Origin: Argyresthia goedartella
Taxonomy: Eukaryota; Arthropoda; Insecta; Lepidoptera; Argyresthiidae
Direction: 5' to 3'
Assembly: GCA_949825045.1 (NCBI GenBank)
Contig: OX463829.1
Coordinates: forward strand, 3,038,001 to 3,102,000
DNA length: 64,000 bases
Below the pieces are notes generated by a model. That model searched no databases. It saw only the letters and a list, made by a program, of their open reading frames with translations, and had not been told where the DNA came from. This document shows, piece after piece, positions 4,636 to 64,000 of this stretch. Within the stretch, counting starts at the first letter, position 1. Each line of letters begins with the position of its first letter. A program made the translations under genes and the position numbers.

Positions 4636-4777
4636 ACACAATTTAAATGATATAAAAGCTTGTTGCGGGATTTACTTGTGTAGATTCGATTAGGTTGGTA
4701 GTTAGATGTACATACATATTTTACACAATCTACACAAATAAATCCCGCAACAAGCTTTTGTATCAATTAAATTGTGT
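4636..4777. repeat. Inner inverted repeat of the MITE
   Basis: 'acacaatttaaatgatataa' plus 'aagcttgttgcgggattta' at 4636-4674 pairs with 4734-4777. The loop is about 60 bp. The SINE begins about 11 bp beyond it. Confidence 0.75.
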
Positions 4778-4787
4778 AGGTGGGCAT

Positions 4788-5040
4788 TGACGACCCGCAT
4801 GGCCGGTGACCCTGCCTACGAAGCCAAGGATCCCGGGTTCGAGTCCCGGTGGGGGCAAATATTTGTTTGATGAGAACGGATGTTTGTACCCTAATCATGG
4901 TTGTTTATCTTTCTGAGTATAATATTTATCTATATAAGTATATGTAGTATATGTATGTAAGTATTGTCTAGTACCCAAGATACAGGGAATCCTAGTTTGG
5001 GGCTAGACCAATGTGTGTAAATAGTGTCCAAGGTGTTATG
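4788..5040 (+). mobile_element. tRNA-derived SINE, family 1
   Basis: The head (about 4788-4857) is tRNA-like, with an A-box region and a clear B box 'gggttcgagtccc'. In the other copies the A-box region reads 'atggccgagtcgg', which points to a class II (Leu/Ser-type) tRNA ancestor. This copy has lost part of it. The body ends 'gtccaaggtgttatg'. Other copies lie at 7117, 33378, 49341 (minus) and a fragment at 56718. Confidence 0.85.
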
Positions 5041-5181: not shown

Positions 5182-5591
5182 TCTATATATATAAAAATGA
5201 ATCGCTGTTCGTTAGTCTCGCTAAAACTCGAGAACGGCTGGGCCGATTTAGCTGATTTTGGTTTTGAAATGTTTGTTGTAGACCAGGGAAGGTTTAAAAG
5301 TAGGGTAGGATAGGATATGGGTAGGGTAGGGTAGGAGTAGGGTAGGGGTAGGGTAGGGGTAGGGTAGGGGTAGGGTAGGGGTAGGGTAAGGGTAGGGTAG
5401 GGTAGGGTAGGGCAGGGGTAGGGTAGGGGTAGGGTAGGGTAGGGGAAGGGTAGGGTAGTGGTTGGGTAGGGGTAGGGTAGGGTAGGGGTTGGGTAGGGGT
5501 TGGTTAGGGGTAGGGGTAGGTTAGGGTAGGGATAGGTAAGGGTAAAGTAGGGGTAGAGCTACCCGCAGCGAAGCGAGAGCGGGTCAGCTAG
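5182..5591 (+). mobile_element. Non-autonomous Helitron
   Basis: The element starts TCTATATATATAAAAATG after an A and ends CTAG before a T, as expected for Helitron insertion between A and T. A short hairpin (acccgc / gcgggt) with an AGCGAAGCGAGA loop sits just upstream of the 3' CTAG. The first 100 bp match the 5' end of a common lepidopteran Helitron ('tcgctgttcgttagtctcgc'). It carries no Rep/helicase coding sequence; the interior is a G-rich minisatellite. Confidence 0.85.
5289..5560 (+). repeat. G-rich GGGTA/GGGGTA minisatellite inside the Helitron
   Basis: About 270 bp made of GGGTA, GGGGTA and variant units (GGTTGGGTAG and similar), with runs of three or four G on the plus strand throughout. 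The order mixes 5-, 6- and 11-bp units. The strand asymmetry makes G-quadruplex formation possible. Confidence 0.95.
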
Positions 5592-6776: not shown

Positions 6777-7116
6777 CAATGCTCAAAATTAAAGGCACTA
6801 ATGATTACTTCACCTACGTATTTCCTGTTTTCCTGACACGGCCTGTACCCACCATCTTAACTGCACAGAGGTTCCACGAAGCAGGTCTAATGGGCCTGTT
6901 CGTTTTTATTTTTTCCGCAGAACCCTAAAAGCAAACTATGATGGGGTAGTTTTCCTCAATTACGGCGTAAAATCTACGTTAATAATATGAGGAAAAGGAC
7001 TGTTTTTTGTGGAAAACATGAAAGAAGGCAAGCCGGTGGATTGATTGTGAATTGGTTTCGGCCATGAGTAAGGATGCTTGGTTTGTTACTTATTTATTTG
7101 ATGACGTATTTGATTT

Positions 7117-7375
7117 TGACGACCCGAATGGCCGAGTCGGCAGTGACCCCGCCTACGAAGCCAAGGGTCCCGGGTTCGAGTCCCGGCGGGGGCAAATATT
7201 TGTTTGATGAGAACGGACGTTTGTATCCTAGTCATGGTTGTTTATCTATCTAAGTATAATATTTATCTATATAAGTATGTGTATCGTTGTCTAGTACCCA
7301 AGATACAGGGAATCCTAGTTTGGGGCTAGATCAATGTGTGTAAATAGTGTCCAAGGTATTATTATGTATTATTAT
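7117..7375 (+). mobile_element. tRNA-derived SINE, family 1 (best copy)
   Basis: The tRNA-like head has a class II A box 'tggccgagtcgg' and the B box 'gggttcgagtccc'. It is followed by the common body and a 'ccaaggtattattatgta' tail. This copy and the one at 33378 are the most complete. Confidence 0.88.
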
Positions 7376-7829
7376 TTACTGTTTTTTACTTCCGATAAAA
7401 AAGACGTAAAGGTCCGGCGTTTGCATCTGTGTACCTGTCTGTGGCATCTTAGCGTCCATATAATTCATATCCATATCTGAGATGTGATGAATTTAATAAT
7501 GATCATTAAATTATTCAAAGATAATTTATCTTATACTTAAACCGCTACCCATAGAACAAGAGTATTAGTAGTCTACCATGTAAATTTTATTGATTCACAT
7601 CTTCCATGATTTAGTTGGTCAGCTTATTGCTAAGACAAATATCCCTTTGCAAAGCTCTTATATTGAACGCAAGTAATTGCACCTTTAAGGTTACGTTGCC
7701 AAATATACCACTAACTTGCAGTGTACCAAAACATTAGTATCCAGCTGGTAAAAAGGAAAATGATATTGTATTTTTCAAAAGTCATGGTTTTCATGCTTAC
7801 TACATACGAGTACCACTTTATTAAGCGTG

Positions 7830-31772: not shown

Positions 31773-31966
31773 ATGTCACGAAAATAACACGATCCGCAAG
31801 TTTATAAATTTCCTAGGAAATTTATAAACTTCCTTCTAGATTATATTAGGCTAGGTTAGGTTCGGTTAGGTTAGGTTAGGTTAGGTTAGGTTAGTATATT
31901 TATAAACATGCGGAAAAATTTTTAGGAAATTTATAAACTTGCAGATCTTGTTATTTTCCGGTGACA
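31773..31966. mobile_element. MITE carrying TTAGG repeats
   Basis: The terminal inverted repeats are about 45 bp: TGTCACGAAAATAACACGAT at 31773, and the complement ending TTCCGGTGACA at 31966. They continue through 'gcaagtttataaatttcct'. TATATA flanks both ends. The interior contains a 49-bp TTAGG tract. Confidence 0.85.
31846..31894 (+). repeat. Interstitial insect telomere-type (TTAGG)n tract
   Basis: About ten TTAGG-type units, two of them altered (GCTAGG, TTCGG). The sequence matches the canonical insect telomeric repeat, but it lies inside a transposable element rather than at a chromosome end. Confidence 0.95.
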
Positions 31967-33377
31967 TATATATATATATTTTTTAAACAATTAATTGAAA
32001 AATAACTGGCCCGGTGACATGGCACTAACCCATCGCCGCAAGTATTTCCTTAATGCAGTAACGCAACTCATCAGACAACACCTCTCCGCCAGAGTTACAA
32101 AGATTTATCCCATGTTATTGTGGGAGTGTCTCTACCGGCTAATGGGACCAAGTATGGAATCTGGATTTAGTTTTGGAAGTTCGTCGCTGGGTTGAATAGT
32201 TTAGCAGATAATGAGTAAATATCACTCGGGAATAGGGGATATTGGTACTGAAAATTGTGTCAAGTAGCAGAAAAACACAGTACATAAATGATCATTCATT
32301 TAGGTGCTGTGTTTTTCTGTCGTCATATTCTTTTGTTTGTATATTCTGATGTCGTATAGGAGAAGCCTACACGGTAAACTAGATGAAATCGTGATGATTC
32401 ATCATTCTACATAATGCTTCGCTTTGTCCGAACTTCGTATTTGTATGAAGTGGGAAATTAGTGACGCTTAATTCACCTTTTTTTTTATTTTTTATTTTTG
32501 ATTTTATAACCTAGGGCCTTGCGTCTTTATAATGTAAGGTTTGTTTTCGTTTTGGTTTTGCTTGGCCTAAGGCCTCTCACTTTTCTTACATATTTTACTG
32601 CATTTGATACATATATTGAAGAATTTAAAAAACACATGACATCCGCCATTTTATGATGGCGGCCATCTTGGATTTGTATTTTTTTCATGGTATACTGTGT
32701 TTTACTAGTAAAGCCCTTTCATTTGATACTCGCGCAGAAGGATTACGGATGATTTTATAGGCTGTGTGTGTTCATCAGTTAAAGTAGTCTATTTATTTAT
32801 TATATATAGGTTGAATGATCAAAAATCTGGGATATCGGCTAACACAAAATATGCCAAAAATATATTAAATCTTACTTTTTTGTAGCAATGAAGTTGATGG
32901 GACGTTGTACCCAGCTGTATACGAACTCTGTAGAGATAAACTTTTTGCTGTGATTAAAAACGTGATATTAGAGCGGCAACTTGTTGTGTCGAAATTGTTG
33001 TTTTTTATATTGGACTAAAATATATACTGAACGTTACCCTTAAAACTGGACTTTACAGTTATAGTAAGCATTAATGGTGCTATCCAAGGATAGGTTTGTT
33101 ATATATTTGGCTTCGTTCCAAAGCAAACCATTCCCATTCCTTTAACTCCAAAACAATCATTTTAAAATAAATAAAAAACACGCATCAAAGGTCTTTCTTA
33201 AATATTACAGGAAAAATAATGTGAAATGTATACATCTATCTATCTATTCAGCCTTCCGCACCCACTGATGAGTATAGGCCTCCTCTTCAGCAGGCCACTT
33301 GACGCGGTCCTGCGCCAGCCCCATCCATCAGAAATGTATACCTATAATACATTTAAATTGGGATTGTGCCCGATTGT
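31967..33377. other. No gene recognised
   Basis: Contains an imperfect inverted repeat around 32268-32320 (CAGAAAAACACAG / CTGTGTTTTTCTG). 32625-32760 ('atccgccattttatgatggc') is of a kind common in lepidopteran dispersed repeats. Confidence 0.4.
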
Positions 33378-33643
33378 TGACGACCCGAATGGCCGAGTCG
33401 GCAGTGACGCTGCCTACGAAACCAAGGGTCCCGGGTTCGAGTCCCGGTGGGGGCAAATATTTGGTTGATGAGAACGAATGTTTGTACACTAGTCATGGTT
33501 GTTTATCTATGTATGTATAATATTTATCTATATAAGTATGTGTATCGTTGCCTAGTACCCAAGATACAGGGAATCCTAGTTTGGGGCTAGATCAATGTGT
33601 GTAAATGGTGTCCAAGGTATTATTGTTATTATTATTATTTATT
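33378..33643 (+). mobile_element. tRNA-derived SINE, family 1
   Basis: A and B boxes are intact, and the body runs to 'gtccaaggtattattg' with a TTA-rich tail. 33644-33715 adds a separate LINE-like 3' end with 'caataaagaaattatgaa'. Confidence 0.88.
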
Positions 33644-33715
33644 GTGAGGCAATTGTTATGTAACTCTTGTTTTTTGTATTATTTGTGCGCAATAAAGAAA
33701 TTATGAATTTTGAAA

Positions 33716-47440: not shown

Positions 47441-47954
47441 ATCGTTTAAGCCGTTTCCAACTAATGTATGAGACTACTGTCATATTTCATCAATATTCGG
47501 AAGATTTAGGTTAGCCAATAAGAGTGGCGTATTCTCATGAAAGACAACAAATTTCAGCATTGAAACCTGGATTGAAACAAATGTCTGCAAAAGATTAATT
47601 TAAATTCGCAGTTAGATATAAATGAGACAATTCAAGATGTTCGATTCACAGGATAATCCATTAGAGGGATCCAATAAGAAATGGTCGGCAGCTTCAATGG
47701 CTTGCAGTAGCATACTGTCTTGACAATGATCCATTATAGATTCGACGGTAGTTCAATCTATTTCCTTTAAGCTTTGTAACATGTTTTTGCGTTGGTACGA
47801 CTTTGCACATTTGGATCCCGACTGAGAATCTTGTGCCAGAATCAAATCTTAGATAGGGACAAAACATTCCCCAAAATGTCACAGCAACATGTCGCTGCAA
47901 TGTTGCGCAGTGTCTCGAAACACGGTTCGCGACATTTTACTATGGTATGTGTGG
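47441..47954. other. No gene recognised
   Basis: Non-coding approach to the minisatellite; its last 70 bp already show weak 'gcaacatgtcgctgcaatgt'-type similarity. Confidence 0.4.
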
Positions 47955-48440
47955 CCGAGTCATGAAGCAACATGGCCGCGTCATGTTGCAACGTGGCCGC
48001 ATCTTGTTGCAACGTTGCAGCGTCATGTTGCAACGTTGCAGCGTTATGTTGCAACGTTGCAGCGTTATGTTGCAACGTGGCCGCGTTATTGCAGCGTCAT
48101 GTTGCAACGTTGCAGCGTCATATTGCACCGTAGCCGCGTCATGTTGCAACGTTGCAGCGTCATATTGCAATGTAGCCGCGTCATGTTGCAACGTGGCCGC
48201 GTTATGTTGCAACGTTGCAGCATCATGTTGCAACGTGGCTACGTCATGTTGCAACGTTGCAGCATTATGTTGCACCGTAGCCGCGTCATGTTACAACGTA
48301 GCCGCGTCATGTTGCAACGTGGCTACGTCATTTTGCAACGTTGCAGCATTATGTTGCACCGTGGCCGCGTCATATTACAACGTAGCCGCGTCATGTTACA
48401 ACGTAGCCGCGTCATGTTACAACGTAGCCGCGTCATGTTA
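47955..48440 (+). repeat. 21-bp minisatellite, left block
   Basis: About 23 units of consensus TGTTGCAACGTGGCCGCGTCA, with GGCCGC alternating with TGCAGC and TAGCCGC variants. Most units contain the self-complementary octamer GTTGCAAC. The period is a multiple of three and the unit has few stop codons. Frames therefore stay open on both strands for 110-199 codons; these are not genes. Confidence 0.97.
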
Positions 48441-49340
48441 CAACACTCTCACAAAAATATTGCCATTGCAACAAAAAAACTTTGATGCTGGACAGCCGTC
48501 AAAGTTGCATAGTTATGAGGGCAACTTTTTTATTGTTACCAAGTAAATTTACCAATTTTGATATAATAGCAATAAAACATTGTTGAAATTACAATGCTAA
48601 AATTTTTCGTGTCACTATATGATTTCTTGTGCTTTTGTTCCCATGACAAATGCCTTTAGCTATCTATCATATCAAAGATATATTGTCCCGATGACAAGGG
48701 GTTTTGCTAAAAAGACAAAGGTTTACTGTCCGTGGATCTAACTTTGTTTTGTTGAATTAGCTATCTTCCTTTGTGCTTTTATCAATTCACCGTTGCTTTT
48801 CCGACAAAGTTACTTTTCTCGTATATATTTTGCTGCTCTAGCAAAGTAACATGGCTGATCTTATCCCTGCACTTTGTTAATGGTAAACCATGAAAAAATA
48901 TTATATACTCCCCGAAGCTTCTGACTATTATTGCAGGAGTATGGGTACCCTGAACTATATTTAATGTACACCATACATCTGTATGGTGCATACACAGAGC
49001 ACTCCGGTCAAGGTACGTATACCCGTAACAATATATAGGCAGAAGCTTCGAGGAATATAGATTTTTTTCAGTGTACCATTTACAAAGTGAAGGGATTGTA
49101 ATCTACAATGTAGAACATTGCTTGAGTAGCACAAGATACGATAAGAGGATAGAGGTATTTGAAAATCCTAAAAGAAAATATTTATATCAAAAGTATGTAA
49201 TAATCTCTACTTTACTTATTTATTCCTATGGCATTAGTAAACAGTTCATACCAAATTACAAGTTAATATTAAGGGATTTAAGCCACTCGGTGGCTTCGTC
49301 AGTAAGCTTGATCAGGTCCTCGGGAGGTCCCCCGGTATAT

Positions 49341-49597
49341 AATAATAATAATAATAATAATACCTTGGACACCTTTTACACACATTGATCTAGCCCCAAA
49401 CTAGGATTCCCTGTATCTTGGGTACTAGACAACGATATATATACTTATATAGAGAAATATTATACTTAGATAGATAAACAACCATGACTAGGGTACAAAC
49501 ATTCGTTCTCATCAAACAAACATTTGCCCCCACCGGGACTCGAACCCGGGACCCTTGGTTTCGTAGGCAGCGTCACTACCGACTCGGCCATTCGGTC
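49341..49597 (-). mobile_element. tRNA-derived SINE, family 1
   Basis: The complement of the family 1 head ends near 49597, the body follows, and the tail is an (AAT)n run at 49341-49361. Confidence 0.88.
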
Positions 49598-50618: not shown

Positions 50619-50679
50619 AACGTAGCCGCGTCATGTTACACCGTAGCCGCGTCATGTTACAACGTTGCAGCGTCATGTT
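50619..50679 (+). repeat. 21-bp minisatellite, right block
   Basis: Three units (GTAGCCGCGTCATGTTACA type), identical in kind to the last units before 48440. They are the far side of the array interrupted by the 2.2-kb element. Confidence 0.95.
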
Positions 50680-50887: not shown

Positions 50888-50896
50888 TCACGTAAG
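50888..50896. repeat. Target site duplication, left
   Basis: TCACGTAAG, matching TCACGTAAA at 60555-60563 in 8 of 9 bases. Confidence 0.8.
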
Positions 50897-51240
50897 GTGT
50901 TAGTGAACTTAGCAGATCATTGTCCAGCAGTTTATTTTGAATAAGAGTTCTGCTCGCATGCAGCATAGTTCTGGAGTTCCTGATACTTTTCATAATAGTT
51001 CTGGCGTAGTTACCCAAAAAATTCATATGTCAAAATGATCTGCCAAATTCCGGTAGCAGATAATTTTGCACCAAATCAAATAAAAAGTGAGTTCTGCTCG
51101 CATGCAGCATAGTTATATAGTTCCTGGTGCTTTTCAATAATAGTTCTGGCGTTTTTGCCTAAAAAAAGTATAATCAAAAAATTATATGCCAACAGCCAAT
51201 GGCATATAACCTAAAATAACATTTTCATCGTTTTAAATCA
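50897..51240 (+). repeat. Left terminal inverted repeat, non-tandem part
   Basis: Pairs with 60205-60554, with differences mostly in short indels. It holds two internal copies of 'gagttctgctcgcatgcagc' (about 50946 and 51090), so the TIR itself has a roughly 144-bp internal duplication. Confidence 0.9.
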
Positions 51241-52843
51241 ACTTGAAGGCTAGAACTCTTTTGTTTCTCACAAATCTTTATCAGACCTATAATCTAAAGA
51301 TTTATTCGAGCCTAGAACTCACATAACAGTACCAGCAGATCAAGTAAGAAAGAAAAAAAAACCGAAAAAATAGGAAAGTAAAAATTTTAAAAATATTTAT
51401 TATATATTTCTTTTAATTTATTATTGACTTGAAGGCCAGAACTCCTTGGTTTGTTAGTAAATTTTATTCGAGACCAGCACTCACGTAAAGGCGCCAGCAG
51501 ATCAAGTCAGAATGTTTTTTATTTATTTTTTATTTTCTATTTAGCTTCAAGGCTAGAACTCCTTAGTTTCTTACAAATCTGTATCAGACCTATAATATTA
51601 AATTTAATTCGAGCCCAAAAACTCACGTAAAAGTGCCAGAAGATCAAATCAGAAAGGAAAAATTAAAATAATATTAAACAAAATATTTTAAATTTTTTAA
51701 TTTGCTTGAAGGCCAGAACTCCTTGGTTTATTACAGATCTGTATCAGACCTATAATAGTAAATTTTAAGTTTAGTTTTAAGTTATTGACGAAGTTTCCTG
51801 TAGATTAATCGAATTGTAAACTATATTTTGAACATAGTAAATTTTATTCAAGACCAGAACTCACGTAAAAGTGCCAGCAGATCAAATCAGAAAGTAAAAA
51901 TTTAAAAAAATATTAATTTGATATTTTTTAATTTTTTAATTGGCTTGAAAGCTAGAACTCCTTGGTTTCTTGCAGAACTATATCAGACCTATAATACTTG
52001 ATTTGATTCGAGCCCAGAACTCACGGAAAACTGCCAGCAGATCAAGTCAGAATGTAATTATTATTTTTCCACCTGCCTTGAAGGCCAGATCTCCTTGGTT
52101 TCTTGCAGATATGAATCAGACCTATAATATTTTATTTGATTCAAGCTCAGAACTTGCGTAAAAGTGCCAGAATGTAAAATGTAAAAAAAAAAAGTTTGGC
52201 TTGAAAGCTAAAACTCGTTGGTTTCTCGCAGATCTGTATCAGGCCTATAATATTTCATTTGATTCGAGCTCAAAACTCATGTAAAAAAGCTAGCAGATCA
52301 AGTCAGTCTGTAAAAATAAAATAAAAAATAAAATAAATATTTTTAAAATTTCTCATTGATTTGACGGCTAACTCCTTTTTTTCTGGCAGATCTATATCAT
52401 ACCTATAATATTTAATTTTATTCGAGCCCATAACTCTCGTAAAACTGCCAGTAGATCAAGTCATAAAGTAAAAATTTAAAAAATATTAATTTAATATTTT
52501 TTTATTTTTGTAATATAATTAGCTTGAAAGCTATAACTCGTTGGTTTTTCGCAGATCTGTATCAGAACTTTAATACTATTTTTGGTTCGAGCCCAGAACT
52601 CACGGAAAACTGCCAGCAGATCAAGTCAGAATGTAAATTTTTTATTTTTTTTTTATTTTTCCACATATAATAAAGGCCAGAACTACTTGGTATCTTACAG
52701 ATATGTATCAGACCTATAATATTTTATTTTATTCAAGCCCAAAACTCTCGTAAAACTGCCAGCAGATCAAGTCAGAAAGTAAAAAAAAAAAAAAATCTAA
52801 TTAGCTTGAAGGCCAGAACTCCTAAGTATCTTGCAGATTAGTA

Positions 52844-53330
52844 GTATCGGGGGGTATGGATTGCCCAGAGGGAGGCGTTATTTGATATCCGTGTCATAGA
52901 CACCGACGCTCCCTCCCGAGCATCACGCCCCGTAGCGGCTGTCCTTCGTTCAGCTGAAGAAGAAAAGAAAAGGAAGTACTGCGAGACGCGCCACACCACC
53001 TTCACCCCTTTAGTAACCTCTGTCGATGGAGTTTTTGCTCAACAAATGATATCATTCACTAAACACCTCGCCGAAACGCTGGCGGACCGCTGGAACCGGA
53101 CCCCTGCCACAATAATGGGCTGGCTAAGAGCAAGTACTCAAACCGCCATCATCAGGGCCAGCAGCATGTGCATCCACGGCACCCGCCATAGGTGGAATCG
53201 CACAGGCCTATATGAGGATGGAGCGGCAGTCCCACACGTCTTGAACTAGAATGAATATCTTATTTAAATTCTGTGTACTTATTTTCATGAATCTTTTGCT
53301 TAATAAATTTCTTTCTGTACCAACAAGATA
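52844..53330 (+). mobile_element. 5'-truncated RT-element 3' end inserted in the array
   Basis: Flanked by ATCTTGCAGATTAGTA (52828-52843) and ATCTTGCAGATAAGTA (53331-53346), a 16-bp duplication of array sequence with one mismatch. The insert has no poly(A) tail. It ends in AATAAATTTC and about 20 further bases. Its reading frame is described separately. Confidence 0.85.
52845..53249 (+). pseudogene. C-terminal fragment of a reverse-transcriptase polyprotein
   Basis: 135 codons open to TAG, with no start of its own. Visible motifs: GVWIAQREALFDIRVIDTDA, a Lys/Glu run EEEKKRKY, then FTPLVTSVDGVFAQQM, WNRTPATIMGWLRAST and IIRASSMCIHGTR. I recognise this tail as that of a family of RT proteins with an N-terminal zinc finger. 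The FDIRV-(D)-EKKRK spacing suggests a PD-(D/E)XK-like nuclease, as in restriction-like-endonuclease LINEs; that is inference. The frame is intact, so insertion is younger than most of the array. The RT at 61879 is probably the same family. Confidence 0.75.
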
Positions 53331-55850
53331 ATCTTGCAGATAAGTATCAGACTTATGATATACAATTTTATTCGATCCCAGAACTCGCGTGAAAGTGCCA
53401 GCAGATCAAGACAGAATGCCAAAAAAAAAAAAAAAAACTGATTAGCTTGAAGGCTAAAACTAGTTGGTTTCTTTCAGATCTGTATGAGACCTATAATATT
53501 AAATTTTATTCGAGCCCAGAACTCACTTAAAATAGCCAGCAGATCTGTAAAAAAAAAAAAAAAGATATATTTTTAAAATTTCTAAATATCTTGAAGTCTA
53601 GAACTCCTTGGTTTCTTATAGATCTATATCATACCTATAATACTTAATTATATTTAAGCCCAGAACTCACGTTAAACTGCCAGCAGATTAAGTCAGAAAG
53701 TAAAAAGAAAAATAAAAAAAAAGAAAACACTACCTGGCTTGAAGGCCAGAATTCCTTGGTATCTTGCCGATTTGTATCAGAACTATAATATTAAATTTGA
53801 TTTAAGGCCAGAACTTACGTAAAAATGCCAGCAGATCAAGTCGGAAAGAAAAAATAGATAAAATATGAATTAAATATTTTTTTAATATCCTAATTGGCTT
53901 GAAGGCCAGAAATCTTTAGTTTCTTGAAGATGTGTTTCAGACCTATGATATTAAATTTAATTCGATCCCAGAACTCGCATATAAATGCCAGCAGATCAAT
54001 CAGAATGTAAAAAATAAAATAAAAAATAAAAAAATCTGTTTGCTTGAAGTCCTTGGTTTCTTGCATATTTGTACCAAACATATAATAATAAATTTGATTT
54101 GAGCCCAGAACCCTCGTAAAACTGCCACCAGATCAATTCAGAAAGTAAAAATTAATATAATATTAAAAGGAAATATTTTTAAATTTCTAATTGGCTTGAA
54201 GGCTAGAACTTCTTGGTTTCTGGTAGATCTATATCAGACCTATAATACTAAATTTCAATCGAGCCGAGAACTTACGGAAAACTGCCAGCAGATCAAGTCA
54301 GAATGAAAAAAATTAAAATAATATTGAAATATATATATTTTTATTTTTCCACCGGGCTTGAAGACGAGAACTCCTTGGATTCTTGCAGATATATATCAGA
54401 CCAATAATATTTCATTTGATTCAAGTCAAGAACTCGCGTAAAAGTGCCAGCAGATTAAGTCAGAATGTAAAAAACAACAAAAAAAAAAAAAAAAAACGAT
54501 TGGCTTGAAGGCTAAAACTCGTTGGTTTCTCGCAAATATGAATAAGACCTATAATATTTCATTTTATTTGAGCTCAGAACTCACTAAAAAAGCTAGCAGA
54601 TCAAGTCAGTCTGTAAAAATTAAAAAATATTAAAAATAAATAATTTTAAAATTTCTAATTGGCTTGAAGGCTACAAATCCTTTGTTTCTGCCAGATCTTT
54701 ATCATATTTATAAAAATGAATTTAATTCGAGCCTATAACTCTCGTAAAACTGCCAGAAGATCAAGCCAGAAAGTAAAAATTTAAAAAATATTAATTTAAT
54801 ATTTTTTTAATTTTATAATCAGCTTGAAGGCTAAAACTCGTTGGTTTCTGTTAGTTCTGTGCGAAACCTATAATACTAACTTTGATTTGATCCCAGAACT
54901 CGCATATAAATGCCAGCAGATCAAGTCAGAATGTAAAAAATAACAAAATATTTTTTATTTTTCTGATTGGCTTGAAGACTAGAACTCCTTGGTTTCTTGC
55001 TATCTGTACCAAACCTATAATAATAAATTTGATTTGAGCCCAGAACTCTCGTAAAACTGTCAGCAGATCAAGTCAGAAAGTAAACATTTTAATAATATAA
55101 AAAAAATAAAAAATTGCTAATTGGCTTGAAGGCTAGAACTCCTTCATTTCATATTAGACATATAATACAAAATTTTATTCGAGCGCAGAACTCACGGAAC
55201 ACTGCCAGCAGATCAGGTCAGAATGTAAAAAAAAACTGATTGCTTGAAGACTAGAGCTCCTTGGTTTCTTGCATATCTGTAACAAACCTTTAATAATAAA
55301 TTTGATTTTAGCCAAGAACTCTCGTAAAACTGCCAGCAGATCAAGTCAGAAAGTAAAAAGTAAAATCATATTAAAAAGAAATATTTTTAAAATTTCTAAT
55401 TGGCTTGAAGGCTGGAACTCCTTCATATCATATCAAACCTATAAAACAATATTTGATTCGAGCCCAGAACTCACGGAAAACTGCCAGCAAATCAAGTCAG
55501 AATGTAAAAATTTCAATAATATTAAAATATATATTTTTTATTTTTCCACCTGGCTTGAAGGCCAGAACTTCTTGGTTTCTTGCAGATATGTATCAGACCA
55601 ATAATATTTATTTTAATTTAAGCCAAGAACTTGCATAAAAGTGCCAGCAGATCAAGTCAGAATGTAAAAAACCAAAAATATTTTTATATTTTCTGATCGG
55701 CTTGAAGGCTAAAACTCGTTGGTTTCTCGTAGATCTGCATCAGGCCTATAATATTAAATTTTATTCGAGCCCAGAAATTACGTAAAAAAGCTAGCAGATC
55801 AAGTCAGAAAGTAAATATTAAAATAATATTAAATAAATAGTTTTTTATTT

Positions 55851-56640
55851 TTACTTTCTGACTTGATCTTCTGGCAGTTTTACAAGAATTCTGGGCTTGA
55901 ATCAAATTAAATATTATAGTTCTGATACATATCTGCAAGAAACTAAGGAGATCAAGCGAGGTGAAAAAAAAAAAAAATCTGACTTGATCTTCTGGCAGTT
56001 TTACAAGAATTCTGGGCTTGAATCAAATTAAATATTATAGTTCTGATACATATCTGCAAGAAACTAAGGAGATCAAGCGAGGTGAAAAAAAAAAAAATCT
56101 GACTTTATCTGCTGGCAGTTTTCCGTGAGTTCTGGGCTCGAATCAAATTTAGTATTGTAGGTCTAATATAGATCTGCCAGAAACAAAGTAGTTCTAGCCT
56201 TCAAGCCAATAAAAAAATAAAAAAATAAAATATTTTTAATATTATTTAAATTTTTAATTTCTGACTTGATTTGCTGGCAGTTTTTCGAGAGATCTTGACT
56301 CAAATCAAATATGTATGGTACAGATATGCAATAAACCAAGGAGTTCTAGTCTTTAAGCCAATCAGAAAATTTAAGAATATATTTTTTTTTACATTGTGAC
56401 TTGATCTGCTGTCATTTATATGCGAGTTCTGGGAACGAATCCAATAGTGCTAAAACATGTCTGTAAGAAACTAAGGAGTTCTGGCCTTCAAACCAATTAG
56501 AAAAATAAAAAAATAAAAACATATTTTTTCTATTTTTTTTTTTCCGACTTGATCTGCTGGCATTTTTACGTAAGTTGTGGGCTTAAATCAAATTTAATAT
56601 TATAGTTCTGATACTCAAGCAAGAAATCAAGGAGTTCAAA
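55851..56640 (-). repeat. Right-arm inverted array, inner part (about 6 units)
   Basis: The orientation of the unit flips at about 55850 ('tttctgacttgatcttctgg' instead of its complement). Units begin near 55857, 55978, 56098, 56260, 56396 and 56545. The block is cut at 56640 by the Harbinger element. Confidence 0.9.
55857..56098 (-). repeat. Exact 121-bp tandem duplication
   Basis: 55857-55977 and 55978-56098 appear identical by eye, whereas other neighbouring units differ at many positions. Confidence 0.93.
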
Positions 56641-56717
56641 GGGCCGATCGCGCTATTTTGTATAGTTAACGAATGTCAAAGGTTTGGTTCTGGTTCAGTT
56701 CCAGTTGTAATTCAACT

Positions 56718-56787
56718 AACCCAAGATACAGAGAATCCTAGTTTGGGGCTAGATCAATGTGTGTAAATAGTGTCCAAGGTATTATTA
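56718..56787 (+). mobile_element. SINE family 1 3' fragment
   Basis: 'acccaagatacagagaatcc' to 'gtgtccaaggtattattata'; only the 3' end is present. It is nested in the Harbinger element. Confidence 0.85.
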
Positions 56788-57149
56788 TAACTTTGGTTCG
56801 GTTCAATGAAATTCGGTATCGCGCTAAAGTTTAAGTGGTGACCGAAGCTGAACCATAACCGAACCATTGTCGTAATCAAAACATTAGAGGTGTAGCATCG
56901 ATTGTGTATAATCGACCATCGATTTCGCGTTTTTGTTGTTAACAACTCTAGTTTTGACTACACCATATCCCCTATATAGTCTGTGGACCAGACTTGGGAC
57001 CAGACAGAATTCGTGGAAATTGATTTGATGTGTTTACGAGCTGAACGAAAAATTACAGATAAAAGATTCAAGTGGATAGAAATTTAGCTTTATAAATAAG
57101 TGTCCTTTCAACATTACCTACGGGTGTGAATACTTTTGGTTTGAAATGC

Positions 57150-57690
57150 AGCAACAGCGCCGCAGCGTCACAACCTGTTCGCCAACTTGAGATGATGATG
57201 GAGTTTCTGGAAGTTCATCGAGATCTAGCCCTAGGTTGAATACAATAGAAAGAGTTCCGTGCGACAGCAGACTGTCTGTGGAGGGAGTGCGCAGACATCC
57301 TCAACCCCTTTAGAGCAGTTAGGACTGCAAAGGGGATCAGGTATGTAGTTTTCTTTATCTTAAAATTTTCCCTATCAGAATAGAATGCTTTTGTAAGATG
57401 CTGTCCGAAGTTTAGATAAATAAGTATAACAACGTTTATTGCTTTCATATCCTAAAGGAAAATGTACAAATTCTAATGAAATAGGCACATATGGAAGCAA
57501 ATTGTTTTATTAATGTTCCAGTCAGCAGAAGCATGTTGGACGAATCAAGGCTGATGAGATTGAAAGTTGAACATCTGAGGGCAAAGGCTGCACAGACTTC
57601 CCAGGCTGCTCTGTAAAATGCTCAGGCTCTTAGCTTAATACCATAGCGGAGTCCTTCAAATGAATTTGTGAAATCATAGATTGATGAAGC
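57150..57690 (+). pseudogene. Degenerate Myb/SANT-like protein of the Harbinger element
   Basis: Exon 1 (to 57340, donor CAG|GTATGT) translates as NLRMMMEFLEVHRDLALG, then LWRECADILNPF, with stops. This matches the N-terminal helix pattern of the Myb-like DNA-binding domain carried by insect Harbinger elements. Exon 2 (from 57522, after ...ttccag) has RLMRLKVEHLRAKAAQT. At least three stop codons show it is dead. Confidence 0.6.
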
Positions 57691-58179
57691 AGGTAATTTT
57701 CTACTTTACTATCAGTTTGGGTAGGACATAGTTATATAGGAAATGTGCCCTAAACTTAATATAAATTTTAATTTTAAAAGTGCCCTTAGTATAATTTTAA
57801 TGACATTTTCCCCATAAGTTTTTTAAAGCATGTTTACTTTTCCTGTAAATGTGCTGTAGAAAATATTAGCTATAATTTATTAATTCATGCTATCATTTAA
57901 ATATAATATACTATATACACTTTAACTAACTTGAACATTATTTCTTTTTTCAGTTATGTACCCAACAAAGAGAAGATACGTGTGAAAAATATTTAATTAT
58001 TATTACTAGCCTATAATATCCCATTGCTGGGCAAAGGACTCTAATGTGAGAATAATTAAAGTGAGATAACTTAAGTAACAAGACATGAATAAAACAAATT
58101 TACCTAGTTAAATATCATTTATTTTAGTCCTTAATCTATCAAAAATTGCGCTCCCAGCAATAGACTTACTATCATAACA

Positions 58180-58300
58180 TTCATAGAATGTCACCCTTTT
58201 TTGTTAAAGTATCTCTCCTCATGTTCATTAGGGGTAACTATAGACATGAGTACCATCTTCACAACCCAGAACCCCTTGCAATCTGAACTTTTTGAAAAAT
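58180..58300 (-). pseudogene. Harbinger transposase remnant
   Basis: One frame gives GVLGCEDGTHVYSYP, the conserved C(x)DGTHV block of the Harbinger nuclease with one of its acidic residues. A shifted frame then gives ERYFNKKG and HSMNVM, which match the following block. The frameshift and stops make it non-functional. Confidence 0.7.
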
Positions 58301-58329
58301 CTGAAAATAATAAACATTTATAAATAAAC

Positions 58330-58515
58330 ATTTCCATACAGGTACAAACATTGCTTCTGGCCCCACACTAGGGTACCCTGGGTTGTGGGAACCAGAAACA
58401 ACGATGACAAAACTGGGTTTTCTTTTCTTTATCCTCAGCCGGGGATTGAACCCGGGACCTCTCTCTTTTAGGCAGAGCAAATACCGCACATGGTAGCAGC
58501 ACCACAGAGAGTTCT
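58330..58515 (-). mobile_element. tRNA-derived SINE, family 2
   Basis: The complement has the head 'ctctgtggtgctgctaccat', the B box 'gggttcaatccccggctgag', then 'tgtttctggttcccacaacc' and a 'ggaaatgtttatttataaat' tail. Inserted into the Harbinger remnant. Confidence 0.8.
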
Positions 58516-59193
58516 GGCTTGTTGAATGCTAAGTGACTTGTTTTACAATTTTGAAGACACTTGACTGGTAAAAACAGTGTTTCCGGCTATTTCATCCAAT
58601 CGTCTGGTAGGAGCCTGTGGCAAAATGCTAAACAACCCTCACCTGAAACAAAATGTAAGCACTGTTACTAAGCTCACTTAGTTCTGTTTTTGGGAAACAG
58701 GGAATAAAAATTGATCATGTCCAAGGAAAAGTAAATGTGCTGTGATAAACTTTAGTACTTTGTATAGTGTTACTAACCTTCGTGTCCACATCCAAAGCAC
58801 TGGTTGGTGGCAAATTAAGGGTCAATTGAGTAATTAACGTGTCCACAAGCTAACTCCTTCGACCGTCAATATTGCTTGATAAAATCCGATTCTCTGTTTT
58901 AGATTGGGCTATACCTATATCACACTCGTATGCCATTTCCAAAGTCCAGACACATCAATTTCACGATTTTCACCTACTTTTCATCTCAACAATTCTAAAC
59001 CAGTCCTGAAAAAGTAGCTCCGCAATAACTTTAACACAACCGTTCATTTGACAGCGGTTACGGTCCAATTCCAATCGAACTTCGGTTCAACCATCTGTCA
59101 AAACATTAGCGCGATACGAAAAGTCCTTAAAGTTGTGTTTCGGTTATGGTTCAGCTATGGTTCGGTCGATATCTTTTACCGCGATCGCCCCCC

Positions 59194-60204
59194 TGGCCTT
59201 CAAGCCAGGTAGTATTTTTACTTTCTGACCTGATCTGCTGGCAGTTTAACATAAGTTCTGGGCTCGAATAAATTTAAGTATTATAGGTATGATATAGGTC
59301 TGCAGGAAACCAAGGAGTTCTAGACTTCAAGCCAATTAGAATTATTATTTTTTAATTTTTTTTTACAGACTGACTTGATTTGTTAGCTTTTTTACGTGAG
59401 TTATGGGCTCGAATAAATTTTAATATTATAGGTCTGATACAGATTTGCAAGAAACCAATGAGTTTTAGTCTTCCAGCCAATCATAAAATTAAAATTTTTA
59501 TTTTTTATTTTTTACATTCTGACTTGATTTGCTGGCACTTTTACGCTAGTTTTGGGATCGAATCAAATTTTATATCATAGGTCTGATACATATCTGCAAG
59601 AAACTTAGGAGTTCTGGCCTTCAATCCAATTAGGAAATTAAAAAAATATTTAATCCATATTTTTAAATTTTTACTTTCTGACTTGATCTGCTGACACTTT
59701 TACGTGAGTTCTGGGCTGAAATCAAAATCAAAATTATAGTTCTAATACTGATCTGCAAGAAACCAAGGAATTCTAGCCTTCAAGTCAATAAAAAAAAAAT
59801 GTTTAATATTATTTTAATTTTTGATTTCTGACTTGATCCGCTGGCACTTTTACGTGAGTTTTGGGCTCGAATCAAATTTAATACTGTAGGTCTGATACAG
59901 ATCTGTAAGAAACTGAGGAGTTCTAGCCTTGAAGCTAAATAGAAAATAATAAAAAAAAACATTCTGACTTGATCTGCTGGCACTTTTACGTCAGTTCTGG
60001 TCTCAAATCAAATTTACTATTATAGGTCTGATAGGATCTGCAATAAACCAAGGAGTTTTGGCCTTCAAGCCAATTAGAAAATAAAATAAATATTTTTTAA
60101 TTTTTACTTTCGTATTTTTTTCGTTTTGTGAGTTCTAGGCTCGAATAGATTTTTAGATTATAGGTCTGATAAATATTTGTGAGAAACAAAAGAGTTCTAG
60201 CCTT
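59194..60204 (-). repeat. Right-arm inverted array, outer part (about 7 units)
   Basis: Same unit in reverse orientation, units near 59217, 59365, 59517, 59685, 59825, 59960 and 60110. It continues into the terminal repeat. Confidence 0.92.
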
Positions 60205-60554
60205 CAAGTTGATTTAAAACGATGAAAATGTTATTTTAGGTAATATGCCATTGGCTGTTGGCATATAATTTTTTGATTATACTTTTTTTAGGCAAAAACG
60301 CCAGAACTATTATTGAAAAGCACCAGGAACTATATAACTATGCTGCATGCGAGCAGAACTCACTTTTTATTTGATTTGGTGCAAAATTATCTGCTACCGG
60401 AATTTGGCAGATCATTTTGACATATGAATTTTTTGGGTAACTACGCCAGAACTATTATGAAAAGTATCAGGAACTCTAGAACTAAGCTGCATGCTAGCAG
60501 AACTCTTATTTAATTTTGATCTGCTGGACAATGATCTGCTAAGTTCACTAACAC
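60205..60554 (-). repeat. Right terminal inverted repeat, non-tandem part
   Basis: Complement of 50897-51240; ends GTTCACTAACAC. Confidence 0.9.
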
Positions 60555-60563
60555 TCACGTAAA
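60555..60563. repeat. Target site duplication, right
   Basis: TCACGTAAA; partner of 50888-50896. Confidence 0.8.
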
Positions 60564-61204: not shown

Positions 61205-61878
61205 TATTTTGGTTTATACACGACAATGGCAGTTTTGACGTATAGTTCAAATAGGTAATCTTCTTTGGTGGGATGATTTAACTCTTTCCGTTAATCCGCT
61301 GGCCGGAAAAGGAAAATTTTGACACTAAAATCATGTTTTCTTCTCGACAATAGAATTTTCAGTACAATGCTATAAAATTATATACTCTTTGTACAGTGCC
61401 ACCATCTATCTGTAGAATGGCTACAGTGGAAACTACTGACGCCATTTTGAAAATGTCACTTCGCTGTCAGTTGTTGTAGTGTGTGCTGTTCAGTTGAGTG
61501 TTCATTCGTTTTTCCAATATTTACAAGTCTTGTTTAAAAATCATGCCGAAATCAATCAAAAGTGGTGTACGAGAAAATGTGTGTTTAGAATGTACCTAAT
61601 CTATAAGGTACCTTCTAAACACATTTACACTATAAAAAACATCAATTTATCAATCATCATCAATATATAAACATCAAAATATATGTAAAATCAAGATATG
61701 GTCAGCTGTCACGTCAAATAGACATATTTTTCACAAAAATACTTAATTTTAATATTATTTCCTTTAGACCCATTTATTTATCAACAAAATCCCTTGTTTT
61801 TATTAATCTTACCCTTATCCGAGAGCTAAACAACAAAATTATAGTGCAAATAGATCAAGTAAGTAAATACCCACCCAT
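61205..61878. other. Upstream region of the RT element
   Basis: No supported gene. Contains a short direct/inverted 'gtgtttagaatgtacc' / 'ggtaccttctaaacac' hairpin at about 61578-61622. The 5' end of the RT element must lie somewhere here but is not marked. Confidence 0.35.
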
Positions 61879-64000
61879 ATGTCACAAGCTGACACCGAAT
61901 GCCCGCTATGCCCCAGGAAATTCAAGAAAAATGGGCTCCAGCGTCACATGAGATCAGCACACAACGATGTACTAAACCAATCAGCATCCGCTACTCTTAA
62001 AACTACCACCGATGGGCAAACACCAATGTCACCTTTGGAAGAAGCCTTCGGATCCCCATTCCTGAATGCCATCCAACCCAAGTCTGGCACCTGGCAAAGG
62101 CATTGGGACAACGTCTGTAACCTTCATGGCAAGCTATACGACCTCCCATGCGGTACTGCCAGTAGAAAATTCGTGCACACTCTGGCCGACAAAATTGAGC
62201 ATCTAACCAAATCAACCTACCCCTCTGAACGCGTATTAACCTTTGCTGCGGTCATACTGCAAAGAGACAAAAACGTTAGAAAAATGAAAGATATACTGAG
62301 ACTACTCGATCGGCGCCTAAAACTCTGGGCAGACAAACGTTTCGAGGAACTCATCACGGAATCCACCAAAGCAGATAAATCTATATGAAATACAAGAAAC
62401 CGGAAACAAAACAACAATGACCAAGAAACAAAATTATTCACACGACTGATACTACACGGAAAAACGCGGGAAGCGCTCAACTGGCTCCTCACAAAAGACA
62501 CGAGCAAAGTTTTAAACCCAGACACTGAAGTTGATCCATCCGGTAAAACCGTCAGTGATGTGCTGAGAGAAAAGCACCCCCCGCCTAATACTCCAGATCC
62601 CGCTTTATTCACTCTCCCCAAAGACGTCACAAAACTCCCACCACTCCTTGAAATCGAAATAACTTGTGACCATGTCGAAACAGTTGCGAGAAAACTACAC
62701 GGCGGCGGAGGCCCCACTGGATGCACAGCCGAAAACTGGAGAGATTTCCTACTCCGCTTCGGCCAAGCAAGCGCCCATTTAAGAGAAGCCGTAGCGCAGC
62801 TCACAACGAAACTTAGCAACGAAACCATACCCTGGACCCAAATACAAGCATTAATGTCAAGCCGACTTGTTGCTTTAGACAAATGCCCAGGCGTAAGACC
62901 TATCGGCATCGGCGAATGCCTACGAAGAATATTATCCAAATGCATGATCTTAGCAACAGGCTCTGAAGTCACTGAAGCATGCGGCCAGTCACAGCTCTGC
63001 AGTGGACTGGGCAGTGGCATCGAAGGCGCCATTCATGCCATGACCGATGTCTTCCAAAGAGATTGCCAACCTGGTTCAAACTGGGGAATGCTCCTCGTTG
63101 ACGCGAACAATGCTTTTAACGCCGTGAATAGACAACTAGCCCTCTGGCAAGCAAGAATATACTGGCCACACTGCGCCCGCTTTCTTTATAATACTTACAA
63201 TGGCCACGCTGAATTGGTATTTCGCGATTCTGATACAAGACTATATAGCAGAGAAGGCGTAACCCAAGGAGACCCACTCGCAATGCCACTGTACGCGCTT
63301 GCAACACTACCAATAATTAACAAACTTAAAACCGAAAACACAGTCACACAATGCTGGTACGCCGATGACTCCTCCGCGCAAGGCACTTTCCAAAGCCTAC
63401 GACAATGGTGGGACAACTTAAACAAAACAGGCCCAGCATACGGATACTTACCACAAGGTAAAAAATCATTTCTAATAGTGTCAGAAACTGACAAGTCTAC
63501 CGCAGAAAAGACGTTCTCCGGTACCAACGTCTCCATAGTTACCGGCTCCCGCTTCCTAGGAGGCTACATAGGGACAGGAGGGGACGACTTCGTAAAAAAG
63601 AATATAACCGAATGGATATCTATCATCGAGAAACTCACAACAATCTGCAAAAACTCACCTCAAGCCGCTTACACTGCCCTAACTAAAGCAGCTCAGTTTA
63701 AATGGTCCTTCCTACTACGTGTCTTAAAAAATTCAGAAGAACTTTTTGAACCCTTAACTAACACATTACACGACAAATTCATACCAACACTAATCGGAGG
63801 CGAAATCACAAAACTTGAAACCCAGCTATTTACCCTCCCAGTCCACAAAGGCGGACTTGCCCTTTCTGACCCCTTCAACACACCAAACCGTGCATACCAA
63901 ATCTCAAAACAGGGATCTACAATACTTTCAACAGCCCTAACCGAGATAAAAGACATAAACCTTGCTGAAAACTACAATTCTTTGCGTGACGCAAGAAAGG
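61879..64000 (+). pseudogene. Zinc-finger reverse-transcriptase retroelement ORF, interrupted by one TGA, runs off the window
   Basis: Starts at ATG 61879 (TAA upstream in frame at 61864). A C2H2 finger (CPLCPRKFKKNGLQRHMRSAH) sits at residues 9-29. The frame meets TGA at 62386-62388 (codon 170), then stays open to the window end (over 535 codons). RT motifs: LVALDKCPGVRPIGIGE, LLVDANNAFNAVN, GVTQGDPLAMPLYAL and the catalytic CWYADDSS (YADD at 63358-63369). The N-terminal finger plus RT resembles the R2/CRE-type layout of non-LTR elements with a C-terminal nuclease; exact clade not assigned. The stop is what a single C-to-T change of CGA would give, so a dying copy is likeliest. An alternative is a two-ORF design or readthrough. 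Confidence 0.85.

Follow-up and report, generated by a model that had tools for sequence, protein, structure and literature searches.

A long-armed foldback transposon of Argyresthia goedartella and its probable place in the Mutator superfamily

The 64,000-nucleotide stretch of Argyresthia goedartella DNA presented above (hereafter the window; C23:3038001-3102000 of the genome searched) contains a foldback element of 9,658 bp that extends from position 50897 to 60554. Very probably, the element is a foldback DNA transposon of the cut-and-paste type that is non-autonomous and belongs to the Mutator superfamily, broadly defined; in anatomy it comes closest to the insect Rehavkus elements. It is dead and gene-less, and it represents a well-preserved, long-armed member of an already known kind. 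It belongs to a dispersed family characterized by common ends, 9-bp target-site duplications, and arms of variable length, and remains of a transposase core are located within 1 kb of such arms at sister loci.

Architecture of the element and its dispersed copies

The features of the element in window coordinates are as follows.

50888..50896, no strand: left target-site duplication, TCACGTAAG, agreeing with the right duplication in 8 of 9 bp
50897..51241, plus strand: left terminal inverted repeat, ~345 bp
50911..50919, plus strand: tip word AGCAGATCA, candidate transposase site, with 23 same-strand occurrences in the arms
51242..55816, plus strand: left arm, 27 tandem units (119-position profile and an A/T-rich linker), by unit profile
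51768..51833, no strand: 66-bp insert splitting a unit (profile positions 2-65, then 53-118)
52844..53330, no strand: INS1, nested insert of 487 bp splitting a unit, by unit profile
55817..55847, no strand: flip point, at which the unit orientation reverses and no core is left, by unit profile
55848..60208, minus strand: right arm, 13 tandem units, broken by INS2, by unit profile
~56638..59194, no strand: INS2, nested insert of ~2,557 bp splitting a unit, with GATCGCG-type ends read by eye and no clear target duplication
60210..60554, minus strand: right terminal inverted repeat, 97% identical to the left repeat
60555..60563, no strand: right target-site duplication, TCACGTAAA, agreeing with the left duplication in 8 of 9 bp

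The first bases of the element are GTGTTAGTG and the last are CACTAACAC. Its terminal repeats are 97% identical over 345 bp (0.974 by local alignment), and the left one contains an internal duplication of ~150 bp (query 23-174 versus 167-320), mostly 73-79% identical in other copies. The defined ends, the 345-bp repeats, and the size of ~9.66 kb described in an earlier note on this DNA are real, and the 9-bp flanking duplication is likewise present, with agreement in eight of the nine positions.

An iterated profile search employing 119 positions revealed 42 matches within the element, 29 on the plus strand and 13 on the minus strand. These correspond to 40 units, two of which are each cut in two, arranged as 27 in the plus orientation followed by 13 in the minus. 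Both the approximately 40 inverted units and the orientation flip near 55850 that had been proposed are thereby borne out, the latter at 55817-55847. The periods reported by Tandem Repeats Finder are mostly 147-160 bp, with shorter ones of 121-136 bp and multiples of ~297-309 and 466 bp. No significant unit was detected by the profile in the rest of the window, where the single match was non-significant (E 0.14). The description of the element as almost entirely repeat units does not hold, however, given that INS1 and INS2 account for 31% of it; without both, it measures ~6.6 kb.

In the arms, 18 exact copies were counted of each of the words CCAGCAGATC and CCAGAACTC, and none on the opposite strand. 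These words had been placed near the tips as well; neither is present exactly in the left terminal repeat, which contains AGCAGATCA, whereas CCAGCAGATC is found in the right tip. The units and the terminal repeat have 11 9-mers in common versus a shuffle mean of 3.0, with 6 of 500 shuffles as high, and this sharing of words provides mild statistical support only. By analogy with Galileo of Drosophila, in which tandem repeats in the long terminal repeats contain extra transposase sites (PMC3688188; PMC3573991), it is plausible that the repeated arm words are transposase-binding sites, as had been suggested.

The mean identity between units of opposite arms is 0.797, as compared to 0.803 and 0.790 within the arms. 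In a ranking of the units that omits 3 of the 42 stretches as short, the best left-arm partners of right-arm units 1-3, counted from the tip, are left units 1-3. Right-arm units 5, 7, 8, and 9 pair best with left units 10, 12, 13, and 14, an offset of five, and the remaining six follow neither offset. When pairings were drawn at random, a placement of 7 of 13 right-arm units on two offsets was reached in a fraction of 0.00225; this control is simple and takes no account of how the units are related. Because the pairing is non-random and falls on two offsets, the arms are most simply explained as inverted copies of one array in which about five units were inserted or lost. The two units beside the flip point are identical and represent a recent local duplication. 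For the left arm, a higher-order unit was rejected, the lag identities being flat at 0.795-0.811. Also rejected was a strong homogenisation of the ends of one copy: the within-copy identities of 0.947-0.974 (six copies, without L027) are close to the between-copy values of 0.921-0.976, with a mean of 0.949 in 114 comparisons. The end identities of L014 (0.805) and L026 (0.790) were kept out of the between-copy set.

The genome searched comprises 1,108,636,262 bases in 89 contigs, and copy numbers given here are lower bounds. The search with the terminal repeat recommended in the earlier note yielded at least 47 matches, which are dispersed. The surrounding DNA was read for 34 of the 47 (20 stretches and the window), the remaining 13 being mostly short or weak. 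Eight copies other than that in the window display two tips (L009-L014, L026, and L027). All eight are flanked by exact 9-bp duplications, different in sequence in each; in seven the duplication is at the expected place, and in L009 one missing right-tip base must be allowed for. The existence of such copies, with shared ends and 9-bp duplications, was the test that the note itself had named, and its term "foldback transposon" is right. Within the DNA read, one tip only is present at L015-L020, L023, L024, and L028, and none at L021, L022, L025, L038, L039, and L040. The 9-bp flank of L015, which has the left tip only, was not found again within ~970 bp.

The number of units per two-tip copy varies from 0 in L026, the only one of the eight without arm units, to 35 in L010, with 40 in the window. 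The split between the arms also varies, such that individual arms contain 0 to 27 units and the flip points differ. The L021 (C5) and L022 (C31) loci are 98.6% identical across 9.4 kb, flanks included, and the flank is reverse-transcriptase code as read from the sequence; they appear to represent a foldback copy within a retroelement, the composite having been recently duplicated or moved. L025 (C31:3877000-3886900) contains one 100-bp stretch of the terminal repeat in two places, separated by 4,670 bp and similar in their surroundings. This locus is a tandemly duplicated segment with a terminal-repeat relic. No exact match to the 23-bp tip was observed in viral contigs.

Transposase remains at sister loci and the domains of their relatives

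The claim that the element encodes nothing is true of the window copy, but sister loci carry transposase remains. Broken frames lie beside the arms at L023 and L024, and an 84-aa core piece gave nine matches at seven places, six of them within the family. In five of these six core loci, distributed over three chromosomes (C5, C6, and C15), unit or terminal-repeat sequence is positioned within 1 kb of the core. L034, which was outside the tip scan, shows a partial terminal-repeat match. The seventh place, L036/L039, holds a relative (33%) whose frames are longer. Its joined frames matched 16 proteins, and a search with P0012 gave 14 (itself included), four of which were new; P0013, from Spodoptera exigua, is the sole relative protein with a species name. 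The core pieces of the family align in order to the protein family of these relatives, two of them strongly and one weakly (prob 9.9). The sister loci hold the broken remains of a transposase of ~1,000 aa that probably belonged to the foldback family. No protein relative was found among 67 candidate stretches of viral contigs.

Models of the relatives combine a WRKY-like finger, an RNase-H/DDE fold, and a USP-fold cysteine-protease domain. Among the matches listed, the best fold match of the RNase-H/DDE part is ISCth4, and neither the FLYWCH nor the PHD fold is among the best 50 fold matches listed. Likewise, Pfam scans of 19 relatives produced no PHD, FLYWCH, or SWIM match. Their sequences have a C-x2-C..C..H pattern near the N terminus and pairs of cysteines toward the C terminus. 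No PDB sequence match was obtained for A1.

Each of the 15 long members retains the Cys, His, and Asp residues of the USP-fold domain. It can tentatively be suggested from the models that the transposase family powering the foldback elements has a built-in USP-fold cysteine isopeptidase of the deubiquitinase or deSUMOylase type. Such a domain may shield the transposase, or may remove ubiquitin or SUMO from host factors while the element transposes, and would be a Mutator-type counterpart of the deubiquitinase domains of Helitrons, which are of other folds (VTD and OTU) in the published portion consulted (PMC9741609). In the open-licence literature, no Mutator-type transposase was found to be joined to a protease for ubiquitin or SUMO; Rehavkus is described in Repbase, outside that search. 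The fusion of a transposase with a USP domain was the least expected result of the analysis, and a USP-fold domain in this transposase family may be new.

Nested inserts and neighboring features

Both INS1 and INS2 are later insertions into the element. INS1 is flanked by a 16-bp duplication (52828-52843 and 53331-53346, 15 of 16 identical), and because of this duplication its identity as a retroelement end is suggested. It contains a 134-aa stop-to-stop frame with no clear Pfam match.

Directly to the right of the element, at 61867-63032, is a frame whose beginning resembles a C2H2 finger (Pfam zf-C2H2, E 4.2e-4, below cut-off). By its sequence it also contains reverse-transcriptase-like code, and similar frames occur inside L021/L022. 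A 21-bp minisatellite of the GCGTCATGTTGCAACGTAGCC type occupies 47951-48444, and a second short array with a similar unit lies at 50619-50679, ~220 bp to the left of the element. About ten copies of TTAGG, the insect telomere repeat, are found at 31846-31894, in the interior of a long contig. A GTAGG-type simple array at 5300-5552 is open within a 147-aa minus-strand frame. A repeat of ~255 bp is present in four copies, in both orientations and 81-95% identical (4764-5039, 7112-7382, 33372-33645, and 49341-49595). No tRNA or Rfam family was detected in the window at the thresholds of the tools.

Known foldback systems and the origin of the element

A target duplication of ~9 bp, as observed here, is that of the Mutator superfamily (MULE/IS256), and long inverted arms of tandem repeats, also observed, define the foldback class. 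The repeat-library label MULE-NOF covers Rehavkus. It had been proposed that neither Foldback nor Mutator elements fit on all counts and that the family was perhaps undescribed. This is not right, because foldback elements with 8-10-bp duplications, namely FB4, Tetris, Tm1, and Rehavkus, have already been published. The comparisons that follow draw on portions of the papers cited.

Rehavkus was a Repbase superfamily by 2006 (PMC1634758) and was used as an outgroup in a 2026 survey of arthropod MULEs (PMC13359780). A 2019 paper refers to it as little known and described in Repbase only, and reports 9-bp duplications, terminal repeats of 26-400 bp, a minisatellite, and a PHD finger, with a distribution in insects and annelids (PMC6446971). 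The present family is similar in its 9-bp duplications, in its ~345-bp terminal repeats, which fall within the published range, and in its minisatellite, which adjoins the terminal repeats in both arms of the window copy and in seven of the eight others. Rehavkus-1_TC of Tribolium is 9.5 kb long, and its inverted termini contain units of 164 bp, for the most part five and eight of them (PMC10218199). The element described here likewise has units of ~160 bp in inverted termini and a length of ~9.5 kb, but it differs in having 27 and 13 units per arm, in being gene-less, and in measuring ~6.6 kb without its nested inserts. In addition, no PHD finger was seen in the relatives, whereas their models show a USP-fold domain.

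The remaining systems were compared by description. FB4, the Drosophila Foldback element, is similarly non-autonomous and more likely a MULE, with 9-10-bp duplications and long terminal repeats, although these are ~700 bp rather than ~345 bp (PMC8277862). Tetris of Drosophila virilis, for which a Mutator affiliation was suggested, resembles the present family in its 8-10-bp duplications, its tandem arm repeats (~220 bp), and its complete copies without a conserved open reading frame; its autonomous partner is not known (PMC4079207). Tm1 of root-knot nematodes also has mostly 9-bp duplications and composite foldback ends, but its motif repeats are ~14 bp, and the MULE transposase in some copies is a 496-aa Phantom-type protein with a FLYWCH domain (PMC3169594). 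Note that a published table admits Phantom members without a FLYWCH or SWIM finger (PMC6446971). Galileo differs in belonging to the P superfamily, with 7-bp duplications versus 9 bp here (PMC3573991). In the available part of a monarch survey, "foldback" occurs once, in the reference list (PMC8848866).

Several observations weigh against a Rehavkus-like element mobilized by the transposase described above. The 9-bp duplication of the window copy itself has one mismatch. None of the copies found combines both tips with a core, and the link between core and arms is one of adjacency. Among the scanned core loci, a tip is also present at only L023 and L024, with none at L038 and L040, and the core locus L030 is without an arm in its 3.25 kb. 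L033 and L034 are 13 kb apart on the same chromosome and may not be independent. Neither inverted repeats nor arrays of the 150-bp type are present in the 7 kb of the longer-framed relative L039, and the third core piece matches the protein family of the relatives weakly. A Pfam MULE match was obtained for 1 of 19 relatives, below the curated cut-off (19.2 versus 27.6 bits). Finally, the likeness to Rehavkus is drawn from anatomy, not from a comparison with the Repbase protein.

The lack of a two-tip copy with a core and the armless core at L030 are what would be expected if the arms had been moved by another Mutator-type transposase, for example of the Phantom type as in Tm1, a foldback element with 9-bp duplications (PMC3169594), and if the core fragments were a separate transposon inserted beside them. 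This is unlikely, given that nesting by chance would scarcely bring arm or terminal-repeat sequence to within 1 kb of the core at five of six loci spread over three chromosomes. That the element is a foldback of the P superfamily resembling Galileo, or a hAT element, is highly improbable, for the duplications are 7 bp in Galileo and 8 bp in hAT elements versus exactly 9 bp in all eight of the other two-tip copies, and ISCth4 is the best of the fold matches listed; indeed, Galileo and the P superfamily are ruled out by duplication length. There is next to no likelihood of a local satellite array with an inverted duplication and no transposon, for, although tandem units predominate and foldback repeats are able to seed satellites (PMC4079207), the element has defined ends, the profile detected no significant unit elsewhere in the window, and a simple inverted satellite is refuted by dispersed copies with common ends and different, exact duplications.

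For a Rehavkus-like foldback of the Mutator superfamily, the following scheme can be envisaged. A transposase supplied in trans by a core-bearing copy would have bound the terminal repeats, and perhaps also the repeated arm words, excised the element at its tips, and inserted it with a stagger of 9 bp. The arms would have begun as two inverted copies of one array, with units later gained or lost by unequal exchange or slippage. Loss of the core would have left an arm-to-arm hairpin, which the later insertions of INS1 and INS2 would have broken further. The autonomous partner would most likely encode a protein of ~1,000 aa with a WRKY-type zinc finger, a DDE/RNase-H domain, and a C-terminal USP-fold domain.

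With this element, a little-known transposon group gains a well-preserved member with long arms, and the copies of the family, with arms of 0-27 units and differing flip points, provide a natural series for the growth of foldback arms. Should the USP-fold domain be active, the family would provide an example of a cut-and-paste transposase that brings along a ubiquitin or SUMO protease of its own, a property that can be tested in vitro.
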